A program made the position numbers and the translations under genes. From Salisediminibacterium beveridgei (GTDB taxonomy: Bacteria > Bacillota > Bacilli > Bacillales > Salisediminibacteriaceae): a DNA stretch of 64,000 nt. The notes beneath the pieces were generated by a model. It was not told where the DNA came from, made no database searches, and saw only the letters and a list, made by a program, of their open reading frames with translations. The DNA lies in assembly GCF_001721685.1 (NCBI RefSeq), contig NZ_CP012502.1, forward strand, positions 2,728,001 to 2,792,000, read 5' to 3'. This document shows positions 28,645 to 58,196 of this stretch, piece after piece. How positions within the stretch are numbered: the stretch's first letter is position 1; every line of letters begins with the position of its first letter.

Positions 28645-28770
28645 AAAGACAAAAAAGAACCCTTTTGCTTTCACCACATAAGGATCCTTGATTGCAACCG
28701 GCTGTCATATCAGAAACTGATGAAGACCCTTGGCTTTGCGTCCCTGCTTTTCAACAGGTTTGCCCATATG
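28645..28770 (-). ncRNA. Cyclic-di-GMP-I (GEMM) riboswitch with terminator
   Basis: Read on the minus strand, the leader holds GGGCAAACC (28757-28765), a GAAA-capped stem, GGGACGCAAAGCCA (28731-28744), the second stem AAGGGTCTTCATCAG..., and ACAGCCGGTTGC (28694-28705). These are the conserved parts of the GEMM-I aptamer in the right order and spacing. Behind it GGATCCTT pairs with AAGGGTTC and is followed by TTTTTT (about 28648-28687), an intrinsic terminator that can serve as the switch. The chemoreceptor gene starts 85 bases later. Direction of the response (on or off) cannot be read with certainty. Confidence 0.9.
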
Positions 28771-29032
28771 TGTTTGTGATTTGAATGATTCTTATCTGAC
28801 AATAAGGACAGTAGTATATGACTGCATTAATAGTCTTTTTTAATTCCTAAAACATGTATTATATTAGTTAATTATTACTATAATGGATTTTTAATCAGCT
28901 GTGTTAAATGAGATGAAAAGTTCGGATTTTGTACATATTTGATGGTGGGATTCGGCCGTTTATGACCCTATACAATTCGATTTCTATTCGTGGTAGAATA
29001 ACATGTAGCTGTAAATGAAGGAGATAATCGCG

Positions 29033-38366: not shown

Positions 38367-38453
38367 ATTCTTGTGAGGGTGTAAGAGTTGATCGTACTCC
38401 AGCATCAATTATGCTAGTATTTAAGTAATCACAAAAACAGGAGGCGACACACC

Positions 38454-38891
38454 ATGACCGTAAACGCCATTTTGACGTCTCTCTTTATGTGCTCGGCAGA
38501 TGATGCCTGTGAAGTGTCACTTGAAAAAGACCCTGAATTTATTGTGGACCTGAGAGCAGAAGCTGATGTACCCGTATCCGGAGCTATGTCCCGTTTTGGC
38601 ACAAAATCATTTGCTCTGGTGAACGGTGGGCCCACTTCGCCTGAGGAACTGAAGCGGGCCATTGTATTTGTCAGCGGACAACTCGAATATGGCAACCGGG
38701 TTGTTCTGCATTGACAGGGAGGAAAAAGCCGCACCGGGAGTGTGGCCGCAGGGGTCCTTCTTGAACTGAATCTCGTTGCATCCGTTGAAGACGCACAACA
38801 GGAAATTCTCAAGTTCCAGCCCATTGCACTGATTCAGGACGAAGCCAAAGGTGTTCTGGCCAGTCTGTACGAAACCCGGCAGTCATCGTAA
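38454..38891 (+). CDS. Dual-specificity/tyrosine phosphatase-like protein with in-frame TGA at the catalytic cysteine (possible selenoprotein)
   Basis: Read through one TGA at 38712-38714, the frame gives 145 residues. The TGA is codon 87, inside VVLH-TGA-QGGKSRTGSVAAG. This is the HCx5RT active-site loop of protein tyrosine/dual-specificity phosphatases, with TGA exactly at the nucleophilic cysteine. Everything else is intact: start ATG behind AGGAGG, VDLRAEAD near residue 32, the helix after the loop and a normal end, with a terminator hairpin overlapping the TAA at 38889. A 7-base-pair hairpin lies 13 bases behind the TGA. Either the codon is selenocysteine or a single TGC/TGT-to-TGA mutation has truncated the protein at 86 residues. 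No selenocysteine-insertion genes occur in this window. Confidence 0.6.
38715..38746 (+). promoter_or_regulatory. SECIS-like hairpin downstream of the in-frame TGA
   Basis: GCCGCAC (38728-38734) pairs with GTGTGGC (38740-38746), seven pairs including one G-T, closing a CGGGA loop. The loop guanine lies 22 bases from the TGA, within the spacing reported for bacterial SECIS elements (a short apical loop with G in its first two positions). GC-rich coding DNA can form such a stem by chance. Confidence 0.4.
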
Positions 38892-38904
38892 CTGCCGGGC
38901 ATTT
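38875..38904 (+). terminator. Terminator overlapping the end of the phosphatase frame
   Basis: CCCGGCAGT (38875-38883) pairs with ACTGCCGGG (38891-38899) around a 7-base loop that contains the TAA; CATTTT follows. Its position marks the natural gene end as the TAA, not the TGA at 38712. Confidence 0.75.
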
Positions 38905-38983
38905 TGTATGCTTATTTTTAGATCCCTTTATTGATATCAAAACTTACGATAAACAACAACTGATGTATGCGGGAGGGAAACTG

Positions 38984-40150
38984 ATGAAAAACTGGCTTGA
39001 AATATTCCTGATTTCACTGCGACTGGGCTTGACGTCATTTGGCGGTCCCGTTGCACATCTTGGTTATTTTCATGAAGAGTACGTGAAACGAAGGGCCTGG
39101 CTCACGGAGAAACAGTATGCAGATCTCGTGGCGTTATGTCAGTTCCTGCCTGGACCTGCATCGAGTCAGGTCGGGATCGGCATCGGCATGGTCCGCGGCG
39201 GTGTTGTCGGCGGTTTCATCTCGTTTACCGGTTTTACCATGCCATCTGTTCTTTTACTGATGGCCGTTGCTGTCGGATTTCAGCAGCAGGGACTCATAGA
39301 ACTGGGTATCATCGACGGTCTGAAGATCGTTGCCGTCGCCGTTGTCGCTCACGCCCTGCTCGGCATGGGCCGAAATCTGGCTCCGGACAAAGAGCGGGCA
39401 ACCATCGCTGTCCTGGCTTTTACATCCGTCCTCCTGGTCCCTTCCGTCTGGATTCAGGTTGTCGTCATTCTGACAGCAGGCCTCCTCGGCTGGCGTTTGT
39501 ACCGAAACGAAAATCTCCCAAAAGCTGAAGGCCTCCCTTTGAAGCTGCCATTAAAACTATCTGTGGTGATGCTTGGGTTGTTTGGCGGATTACTGGCTTT
39601 ACTGCCGGTTTTGCGGGCCATGACAGATCATTTACATATCCAGCTGGCGGACAGCTTTTACCGGGCAGGTGCTCTGGTGTTTGGGGGCGGCCATGTGGTA
39701 CTTCCCTTGTTGGAGCGTGAAATTGTCCCGGCCGGCTTGATGAGTGAGTCGCAGTTTCTGGCCGGGTACGGTGCGGCCCAGGCGGTTCCTGGGCCATTGT
39801 TCACCTTTGCCAGTTACCTCGGGATGGTCATTGACGGCGTGCCTGGTGCTGTGACTGCAACGGCAGCTGTCTTCCTGCCGGCTTTTTTGCTGCTTCTGGG
39901 TGTCTTGCCGATCTGGCTGAAGATCCAGCAGATCCCTGCCATGCTGGCGGCCGTCACCGGTGTAAATGCGGCAGTGGTCGGGATTCTCGCCGCTGCCTTA
40001 TACAGTCCGGTCTTTACTTCTGCCATTCTCGAAGCCAGGGACATGGCTTTTGCGGGGCTGTTGTTCATGATTCTCGTCTATTGGAAGCGTCCCGCGTGGG
40101 TTGCCGTGATTCTCGGCATTCTGGGTGGACTGTTGTTCTACGGTGGTTGA
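38984..40150 (+). CDS. chrA: Chromate transporter ChrA (long-chain, two-domain form)
   Basis: This 388-residue membrane protein has two homologous CHR halves and about 10-12 membrane segments. Half one starts LRLGLTSFGGPVAHLGYFHEE and has QFLPGPASSQVG; half two repeats the pattern with RAGALVFGGGHVVLPLLE and GYGAAQAVPGPLFTFASYLG. The family exports chromate by proton motive force and gives resistance; some members have other anion or unknown roles. ATG 38984 follows GGGAGGG; the ATG at 38963 is in the same frame but has no site. It is a single-gene unit. The TGCCACT array and a terminator follow it. Confidence 0.92.
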   Translation: MKNWLEIFLISLRLGLTSFGGPVAHLGYFHEEYVKRRAWLTEKQYADLVALCQFLPGPASSQVGIGIGMVRGGVVGGFISFTGFTMPSVLLLMAVAVGFQQQGLIELGIIDGLKIVAVAVVAHALLGMGRNLAPDKERATIAVLAFTSVLLVPSVWIQVVVILTAGLLGWRLYRNENLPKAEGLPLKLPLKLSVVMLGLFGGLLALLPVLRAMTDHLHIQLADSFYRAGALVFGGGHVVLPLLEREIVPAGLMSESQFLAGYGAAQAVPGPLFTFASYLGMVIDGVPGAVTATAAVFLPAFLLLLGVLPIWLKIQQIPAMLAAVTGVNAAVVGILAAALYSPVFTSAILEARDMAFAGLLFMILVYWKRPAWVAVILGILGGLLFYGG

Positions 40151-51593: not shown

Positions 51594-51721
51594 CCTGAAC
51601 ACCCCTTAGCGTATAATGGTCTATTCTACACGAAACCGGACTGCTTTTCACGGGTTACAATCATTTTGCAAACGTAACGATCTGTGCTATCGTTATCAGT
51701 AACAACAATTGAATCGAACGA

Positions 51722-51905
51722 ACCGCTAGGGGTGCTTTAAAGCTGAGAGAGACTGCCGAGTCTTAACCCTGTCACCTGAACTGGCTAATACCAGCGGAGG
51801 GAAGTGGTGCTGACACATTTGGAATAACGGCCTTCACCGGCATTCCAATCATCTTAAACCGTCAACCACTCCTGACTGCCTGACAGTTCGGGGGTGGTTT
51901 TTTGT
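51722..51905 (+). ncRNA. TPP (thi-box) riboswitch with terminator
   Basis: The aptamer at about 51724-51809 has AGGGGTGCT, GCTGAGAGAGACTGCCGAGTC (P2/P3 region, given as its key parts GCTGAGA and GACTC-type pairing), AACCCT, ACCTGAACTGG and the invariant CTAATACCAGCGGAGGGAAG. This is a standard thiamine pyrophosphate riboswitch. Downstream, AACCACTCC (51864-51872) pairs with GGGGTGGTT (51891-51899) and TTTTTT follows, an intrinsic terminator that would stop transcription when TPP is bound. tenA begins 44 bases later. Confidence 0.96.
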
Positions 51906-56141: not shown

Positions 56142-58196
56142 TTAAGCATTTCGTAAAAGCTGTGCGTTGATGGCTACGATGATCGTACTCAGTGACATCA
56201 GTACGGCACCGACTGCCGGTGTCAAAATAATACCAATGCCGTAAAGCACACCTGCAGCCAACGGAAGTGCCACGATGTTGTAACCGGTGGCCCACCATAA
56301 GTTCTGTACCATTTTCCGATAGGTCTTTCTCGACAGGTCAATCAAAGCCAGTACATCTCTCGGTTCACTTCTGACCAGCACTATGTCTGCCGTTTCGATG
56401 GCTACATCTGTCCCTGTCCCGATCGCAATGCCTAAATCCGCCTGGGCAAGAGCTGGTGCGTCATTGATGCCATCCCCTGTCATACCGACCCGCTTCCCTT
56501 CTTGCTGGAGCGATTCGACATACTCAGATTTTTCGTGAGGGAGTACTTCGGCAAAGACCCTCTCAATGCCGATTTGACCGGCTACCCAATTGGCCACCCG
56601 CTCATTGTCACCTGTAAGCATAACCGGTTCAATATGGCGTTTTTTCAGCTCACCGACAACTTCAAACGCACTGTCTCGAATCTGATCCGCCAATGCTATC
56701 ATGCCTCTGACTTCATCATCGATCAATACAAAAACAACTGTTTTCCCTTCATCTGACCATGTTTCAAAGGCCTCTTTGTCCGGGATCTTCAATTGATTTT
56801 CATCCATGTATCCTGGACTGACGACTTTCACTTCTTTCCCTTGTACTGTCCCGGTCAATCCCCTGCCTTTAATAATGTCGACATCTTCCGGACTGGACAG
56901 CTTGTACCCTTTGTCCAAAGCAGCCTGATAAATTCCCTGGGCGATCGGATGTTCAGAATAGGATTCCAATGACGCAGCAAGTGTTAAATCGTCTTCATCG
57001 TCTGTCAAGGACGTATCCGTGATCCCGAATTCACCCTTTGTCAGTGTGCCTGTTTTGTCAAACACCAGCACATCAATCCGACGGCCATCCTCGAATGCCG
57101 TCCGGTTTCGAATGAGCAACCCCTCTTTGGCAGACTTCGATGTGGTCACTGCGTTCACAAGTGGAATCGCCAGCCCCAATGCATGAGGACAGGCGATGAT
57201 CATGACAGTGACCATTCGCACAATTGAAAAGTCGACGCCAAATCCGGCAACCATCCAAGCGGAAAATGTGGCAATACCTGCTGCAACTGCAAGATAGAAA
57301 AGCCATGCAGCGGCACGATTCGCCAGGTTTTGTGTTTTGGACTTCGAAGCCTGTGCATCTTCGACCAATTTGACGACTTGCGACAGATAGGAGTCTTCTC
57401 CTAATCGTTCAACTTCCACTTAGAGTGTCTGATCGTTATTCACAGATCCGCCTACAACCTGATCATGTTCCGATTTTTCCACCGGTACAGATTCCCCGGT
57501 CACACTGGATTCATCGATGTTCGAATGACCTTTCAATATGAATCCATCGACGGGGATTTTCTCTCCTGCCTTGACTAACACGCGGTCGCCAGGCGATAAT
57601 TCTGATATTTTCACAACGTTGATGTCGCCGGATTCATCAATCTGATTCGCTTCATTTGGCATGATTTTAATTAATTCTTCCAATGCATTGGATGCTCCGT
57701 GGACGGATTTCATTTCAATCCAATGCCCGAGAAGCATAATTACGATCAATGTGGATAGCTCCCAATACATATCGTGACCGTCAAAGCCGAAAACAACTGC
57801 CGTACTGTACACATATGCCACGGTGATGGCCATGGCAATCAATGTCATCATACCAGGCTTTCGATCTTTGACCTCATCCACAACTCCTGAAAGGAACGGC
57901 CAGCCACCGTAAAAGTAAACAAAGGTTGAAAGCAGCGCTAATACATACAAATCAAATGTGAATTGCAAATCGATTCCCAGAAATGTTTGTATGGTTGGAG
58001 ATAATAAAAGAATAGGTACCATGAAAATCAGCGACACCCAAAATCGCTTTTTGAACATCTCAACGTGATCATGATGATCATGTCCCTCATGATGATCATG
58101 TCCCTCATGATGATCATGGCTCTCTTCATGATTATGGTGTTCATGATGGTCCTCTTCAGTTTTGTGGTCATGATGCCGGTGCTTATCGTGATCCAT
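56142..58196 (-). pseudogene. copB: CopB-type copper-translocating P-type ATPase, interrupted by one TAA codon
   Basis: Read through a single in-frame TAA (57420-57422), the frame gives a full P1B-ATPase of about 684 residues. The N-terminus is a His-rich metal-binding tail (repeated HDHHEG), encoded by an 18-base tandem repeat at about 58060-58120. TGES is in SSVTGESVPVEK, the copper motif CPH in IIACPHALGLAIPL (the CopB type), the phosphorylation site in FDKTGTLTKGE and the hinge in TGDGINDAPALAQAD. The stop falls in the actuator domain between VNNDQTL and VEVERLGEDS, where a sense codon is expected. A GTG follows directly, but there is no ribosome binding site for restart. Apart from the stop codon all catalytic motifs are intact, so the mutation looks recent. 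Confidence 0.85.

Follow-up and report, generated by a model that had tools for sequence, protein, structure and literature searches.

A probable selenoprotein with a predicted dual-specificity phosphatase fold in Salisediminibacterium beveridgei and related bacilli

Enzymes of the protein tyrosine phosphatase (PTP) and dual-specificity phosphatase (DSP) types are textbook phosphatases with a cysteine nucleophile. In a stretch of 64,000 nucleotides of the Salisediminibacterium beveridgei genome (contig NZ_CP012502.1, positions 2,728,001 to 2,792,000, hereafter the window), a small frame of this type carries a TGA codon where that cysteine is expected, which raises the question whether the gene is broken or encodes a selenocysteine (Sec) enzyme, and what such an enzyme would do. 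The frame, at 38454..38891 on the forward strand, consists of 86 codons starting with ATG, a single internal TGA as codon 87, another 58 codons and a TAA stop. Re-reading of this interval confirmed a frame that is complete but for one TGA at the place of the cysteine in HCx5R, as the sequence-only reading had described it. The TGA (38712..38714, +; context LH-TGA-QGGKSRTG) aligns with the nucleophile codon of the homologues. On the evidence of sequence, homologues and fold prediction, the gene almost certainly encodes a selenoprotein, a product of 145 amino acids and roughly 15.5 kDa with Sec87, and the explanation as a whole, a selenoprotein of DSP fold with a likely role in oxyanion defence, is considered very probable.

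The genome of the window is complete (3.58 Mb) and was searched for the Sec machinery, which a Sec reading presupposes; all four components, selA, selB, selC and selD, were present. In the profile search selB, with a cut-off set at 242, reached 347.6 bits, and selA 533.5 bits. A tRNA-Sec (63.4 bits, anticodon TCA) adjoins selB. The selD gene (395.4 bits, G000:C1:3203246-3204172; L048, L116) itself contains one in-frame TGA in the context KAG-TGA-GCK, so the organism's own Sec supply appears to involve UGA decoding. An in-frame TGA in selD was found in 31 of 45 genomes searched, own genome counted.

A set of 199 related genomes was searched for homologues at E <= 0.001, and 43 contained one. 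The frame carries a TGA in 16 of these 43, the own genome included, and in all 16 it is the nucleophile codon. A scan of contigs for the pattern GG[KRE]SR[TA]GSVA yielded 14 confirmed loci in 13 organisms, all with TGA; as the Cys homologues mostly read GTV, this pattern favours the Sec form and gives no fair count of Sec against Cys. With eight of the 13 organisms coinciding with genomes of the first set, the TGA form is present in 21 organisms overall. Identity to the window protein ranges from 31 to 56% among 13 aligned TGA relatives. Among the carriers are Sinobaca qinghaiensis, two Alkalicoccus, two Evansella, Salipaludibacillus keqinensis and Litchfieldia alkalitelluris, and further two Halalkalibacter, Halalkalibacterium ligniniphilum, Mesobacillus campisalis, Alkalihalobacillus bogoriensis and Bacillus sp. 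MRMR6. In homologues that lack the TGA, this codon is TGC or TGT in 15/15, 20/20 and 11/11 of three sets inspected, the 15 and the 20 overlapping, and TAA or TAG was not found there in any homologue from the 199-genome set.

Wider samples were searched at a stricter threshold of 1e-12: five genomes matched in a 398-genome sample of the phylum, with TGA only in the own genome, and 76 in a 397-genome sample of the order, with TGA in 11, all of them already in the 199-genome set. No copy was found in phage sequences by tblastn, and none of 20 pattern matches in viral contigs was a relative. Plasmids contributed 33 records with a homologue, all below 60% identity; the three inspected are of the Cys form.

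The TGA form is correlated with the capacity to decode it. Each of the 16 TGA genomes open to searching contains selB, and all 13 selB-less genomes with a homologue have a Cys codon (Fisher p 5.5e-4 for TGA versus selB). A tRNA-Sec above cut-off was found in the own genome and in 15/15 other TGA genomes, and in none of the 13 selB-less ones. The remaining 14 selB-bearing genomes with a homologue all have Cys; the Sec form thus requires the Sec machinery but is not dictated by its presence. Within the window's own genus, the genomes G001 and G002 contain selB and selD and no homologue at the threshold used. In genome G166, which sequence identity assigns to Sinobaca, two tRNA-Sec matches above cut-off were seen, at C2:107174-107266 and 123794-123885.

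A hairpin resembling a selenocysteine insertion sequence (SECIS) begins 13 bases past the TGA (38728..38746, +), with a 7-bp stem (38728-38734/38740-38746) and the 5-nt loop CGGGA (38735-38739). A stem-loop soon after the UGA with a G in the apical loop, a UGA at a Cys position conserved across species (here 21 organisms) and a complete set of selA to selD are the features by which bacterial selenoproteins are recognised, and all three were observed. The hairpin is kept in 20 of the 21 TGA genes. The alignment of 20 distinct TGA genes is gap-free from the TGA onward, and over the seven stem pairs 99.3% of cells can pair, compared with 42.9% in 15 Cys homologues; all seven pairs are intact in 19 of the 20. 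One variable pair is A-U in 16 genes, G-C in three and G-U in one, and a second has C-G in 16 genes and U-G in the other four. RNAalifold recovered this helix from the TGA set and predicted no structure for the 15 Cys homologues.

The codons under the hairpin are frozen as well. In 19 intact TGA genes (codon and protein counts exclude the frame-shifted copies of G016 and of G039, A. bogoriensis), pairwise codon identity over codons +5 to +10 is 0.774 against 0.226 after within-gene synonymous shuffling (z 30.5; reached by 0 of 1000 shuffles), while the same codons of the 15 Cys homologues give 0.312 against 0.305. Arg93 (CGC) and Val97 (GTG) are each encoded by a single codon in all 19. When the own genome was scanned with the hairpin model (150 of 1425 candidates scored), this gene reached 64.8 bits and the next-best site 19.4 bits, from which it follows that the model misses other Sec genes such as selD. 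The selD genes of 16 TGA genomes, encoding an unrelated protein, also have a hairpin after their TGA (15/16 in single-sequence folds), about 12 bases further from it than in the DSP gene. The core CRCARGU occurs in 16/16 selD hairpins and 15/20 DSP TGA genes. The loop may also resemble that of E. coli fdhF. Both checks that the sequence-only reading had named as able to refute Sec, the search for the Sec genes and the comparison of homologues, came out in favour of Sec, with TGA and hairpin kept together in several relatives and TGA found only alongside selB among the genomes searched.

For the product, AlphaFold predicts a DSP fold with high confidence, in which Sec would be the nucleophile of the phosphate-binding loop (P-loop). 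The window protein scores 23.3 bits with PF00782 (DSPc), below the gathering cut-off of 33.5, which two Sec relatives pass (51.4 and 43.9 bits). It departs from a standard DSP at two places. The nucleophile codon of HCx5R is TGA, the remaining signature being kept, and the presumed general-acid Asp is replaced by Asn57 (38622..38624, +). Position 57, which we take from the alignment to be the general acid, is Asp in all but one of the 15 Cys homologues; of the 19 intact Sec proteins, 14 have Asp there and five, including that of the window, have Asn. A cysteine typical of the Sec clade, Cys13 (38490..38492, +), is present in 16 of 19 intact Sec proteins and in none of the 15 Cys homologues, which have Gly13 in 15/15 and Thr96 in 14/15. 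The reading frame is kept after the TGA, and conservation is lower upstream of the motif than downstream of it. A function as phosphatase is putative; the arsenic and chromate context described below points to oxyanion defence.

The gene is followed by chrA (38963..40150, +), encoding a chromate efflux transporter of the long type (359.8 bits with TIGR00937). A chrA is located no more than about 3 kb from 11 of the 21 Sec genes and from none of 20 Cys genes (Fisher p 1e-4), in three arrangements: downstream in the same orientation, downstream on the opposite strand, and upstream. Since 33 of 34 genomes searched have one TIGR00937 gene each above cut-off, multiple copies do not account for this adjacency; in nine of 16 TGA genomes the chrA over cut-off is the one adjoining the Sec gene. 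The Cys homologues lie among arsenic genes at 16 of 20 genome loci examined (L078-L097, a subset of a larger number of homologues seen) and in 3/3 plasmid records inspected (of 33). These 16 loci have arsR and arsC upstream, an arsB-like gene in 14 and arsA and arsD in 13; the other four (L083, L085, L089, L093) have no ars genes and unrelated neighbours. The Sec locus of Halalkalibacterium ligniniphilum combines chrA with arsR, arsB and arsC. This unassigned DSP-fold Cys protein regularly follows the ars genes of Bacillales, and on a Klebsiella plasmid it is flanked by two copies of arsC. The Cys-type gene (L078-L097, L117-L119) is a candidate arsenic-resistance accessory gene.

Because the Cys form occurs among ars genes and the Sec form repeatedly near chrA, a role in the defence against toxic oxyanions is somewhat favoured, on the basis of gene context. 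That the enzyme is a reductase rather than a phosphohydrolase is put forward tentatively; a reductase with a Sec87-Cys13 redox pair would fit the use of selenium together with the gain of a cysteine and the loss of the Asp. The most specific version, a Sec-dependent arsenate or chromate reductase on a DSP fold with Cys13 as resolving residue and export of the product by an efflux pump, is rather unlikely to hold in full. In the preferred explanation, the host SelA, SelB, tRNA-Sec and SelD would decode UGA codon 87 as Sec under the guidance of the conserved hairpin that follows it after 13 bases. A tetrahedral oxyanion would bind in the P-loop, and Sec87 would attack it, arsenate or chromate taking the place of phosphate. 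The selenenyl adduct would be resolved by Cys13 or a cellular thiol, and in the most specific version the product would leave through an efflux pump.

A number of observations weigh against the Sec reading or its functional extension. The sequence-only reading had pointed to a 7-bp SECIS-like hairpin; its stem and its 5-nt, G-containing loop are present and conserved, but the fold energy of the 49 nt is not special. For the single sequence it is unremarkable (z = -0.45 for 49 nt and -1.76 for 25 nt), so the structural argument is insufficient by itself, and it is conservation that lifts the hairpin above chance. Four stem pairs are invariant, compensatory change is confined to one pair (three sequences), and the covariation score was reached by 2 of 500 shuffles. 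The window's own hairpin lacks the selD core and reads CACCGGG. G016 (L027) keeps the TGA with the hairpin region disrupted and the gene frame-shifted, and G039 (A. bogoriensis) keeps TGA and hairpin with a frame-shift elsewhere. Cys13 is missing from three of 19 Sec proteins. No chrA was found in the examined flanks of 10 of the 21 Sec loci, and a scan of the closest one or two neighbours of each chrA-less Sec gene showed no common theme. The organisms are moreover related and their contexts shared, so that the neighbourhood counts are not independent events. As a separate observation, an unrelated short inverted repeat replaces the hairpin stretch in G016, by decay, mis-assembly or recent rearrangement.

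The alternative that survives best accepts the selenoprotein and takes it for a signalling phosphatase acting on phosphotyrosine or another phosphoester, with the arsenic and chromate neighbours incidental. The predicted DSP fold, the two Sec relatives above the DSPc cut-off, the Asp57 of 14 of the 19 Sec proteins and the 10 Sec loci without chrA nearby would all suit such an enzyme. The Asn57 of the other five proteins, the window's among them, the ars surroundings of the Cys homologues in genomes and inspected plasmids, and a chrA linkage that recurs in three gene arrangements argue against it, and this explanation is judged possible but unlikely.

Bacterial genes with a UGA for Sec are expected to yield a truncated product when Sec is scarce. 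The gene could accordingly be a selenium-responsive switch, in which an 86-aa fragment has a role of its own without selenium and the full protein is made only with selenium. This truncation is established behaviour in general, but the first 86 residues do not include the P-loop and belong to the less conserved part of the protein, which makes a switch improbable.

A nonsense pseudogene, arisen by a single change of a former Cys codon to TGA in the window's lineage, was the competing explanation offered from the letters alone. A nonsense codon comparable to the one that the sequence-only reading gave for copB does exist in the window, where a TAA near 57420 interrupts a reverse-strand frame with a P-type ATPase motif, possibly that of copB, and two of the 21 TGA homologues are frame-shifted. 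A broken gene would however show no constraint after the stop. Here the frame is conserved past the TGA and the hairpin codons are frozen, the TGA stands at the same codon in 21 organisms, always with selB and tRNA-Sec where these could be searched, and neither TAA nor TAG replaces it in any homologue of the 199-genome set. A nonsense mutation was therefore rejected and is excluded for practical purposes, and the Sec reading is supported by the own machinery and by the relatives that keep TGA and hairpin. Reading of the UGA as an ordinary residue (Cys or Trp) through a suppressor or a reassigned code found no support, though Cys would suit the nucleophile position, and is just as implausible given Cys homologues that use TGC or TGT, a full Sec machinery including a TGA-containing selD, and a hairpin that accompanies the TGA.

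Set beside known systems, the selenoprotein is closest in build to the Cys-type DSP proteins encoded amid ars genes, which share its length and HCx5R P-loop at 27-34% identity (alignment A2); the plasmid proteins (L117-L119), annotated as 'dual specificity protein phosphatase family protein', have 29.7-32.3%. The Cys-type family differs in having Cys for Sec, no hairpin, and ars genes instead of chrA beside it. Tk-PTP (PDB 5z59/5z5a), ShufPTP (9e9l) and the DUSPs (PF00782) have the fold and the P-loop in common with the window protein, which is set apart from them by its Sec nucleophile, its DSPc score below cut-off and the Asn at the presumed general-acid position. ACR2 and the arsenate reductases of low-molecular-weight PTP (LMW-PTP) type ArsC are Cys enzymes of Cdc25 or LMW-PTP folds, built on phosphatase-like P-loop scaffolds that came to serve arsenate reduction. 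Their likeness to the window protein lies in this scaffold. Sec arsenate reductases (COG1393 ArsC) and Sec rhodaneses, both listed in Table 1 of PMC9312934, likewise use Sec in an oxyanion- or sulfur-handling enzyme. Their motifs differ from those of the window protein. Their folds, we assume, also differ from the DSP fold.

The TGA form kept in relatives among the bacilli appears to point to a new family of selenium proteins. To our knowledge, a Sec oxyanion reductase, if borne out, would be the first selenoenzyme of the PTP/DSP superfamily. It would be a redox enzyme derived from a phosphatase through a Cys-to-Sec exchange and the gain of one cysteine, the window's clade having additionally lost the presumed general acid. 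The Sec form, with its hairpin and clade-typical Cys in 21 organisms, poses the question what a phosphatase-like P-loop gains from the cost of selenium, and the function of an unassigned protein common in many ars gene clusters becomes testable. The 87 prokaryotic selenoprotein families tabulated in 2022 include arsenate reductase (COG1393) and rhodanese entries (PMC9312934), and no DSP/PTP entry occurs in its Table 1, the literature of 2022-2026 being hardly covered by this comparison; among the papers listed by a limited literature search, none dealt with the topic, judging by title and opening of the abstract. According to the same source, most of the known prokaryotic selenoproteins are regarded as redox proteins, and a thioredoxin-like fold prevails among them. 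The word 'phosphatase' is absent from the searched text of the selenium papers PMC1794560, PMC5322559, PMC9312934 and PMC1088965, and from that of PMC6205960 on ars genes; it occurs 26 times in PMC2398784, the passages inspected being on a PP2C domain fused to a peroxiredoxin. No NCBIfam model (June 2026) fits the Sec DSP family, and annotation therefore probably shortens or overlooks genes of this kind.

A Shine-Dalgarno-like AGGAGG (38439..38444, +) lies 9 bases upstream of the ATG. A terminator overlapping the later TAA had been proposed, and a consensus scan of 801 bases, with 0.8 such sites expected by chance, found a terminator-like hairpin there (38875..38899, +). Elsewhere in the window, the P-type ATPase-motif frame at 56142-58196 (-), with DKTGT at 57059, is divided by its TAA into 258 and 425 codons; it is a pseudogene or a sequencing error and no Sec case. 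Two riboswitches were also seen in the window, a cyclic di-GMP-I (c-di-GMP-I) element at 28690-28774 (-) and a thiamine pyrophosphate (TPP) element at 51718-51819 (+).
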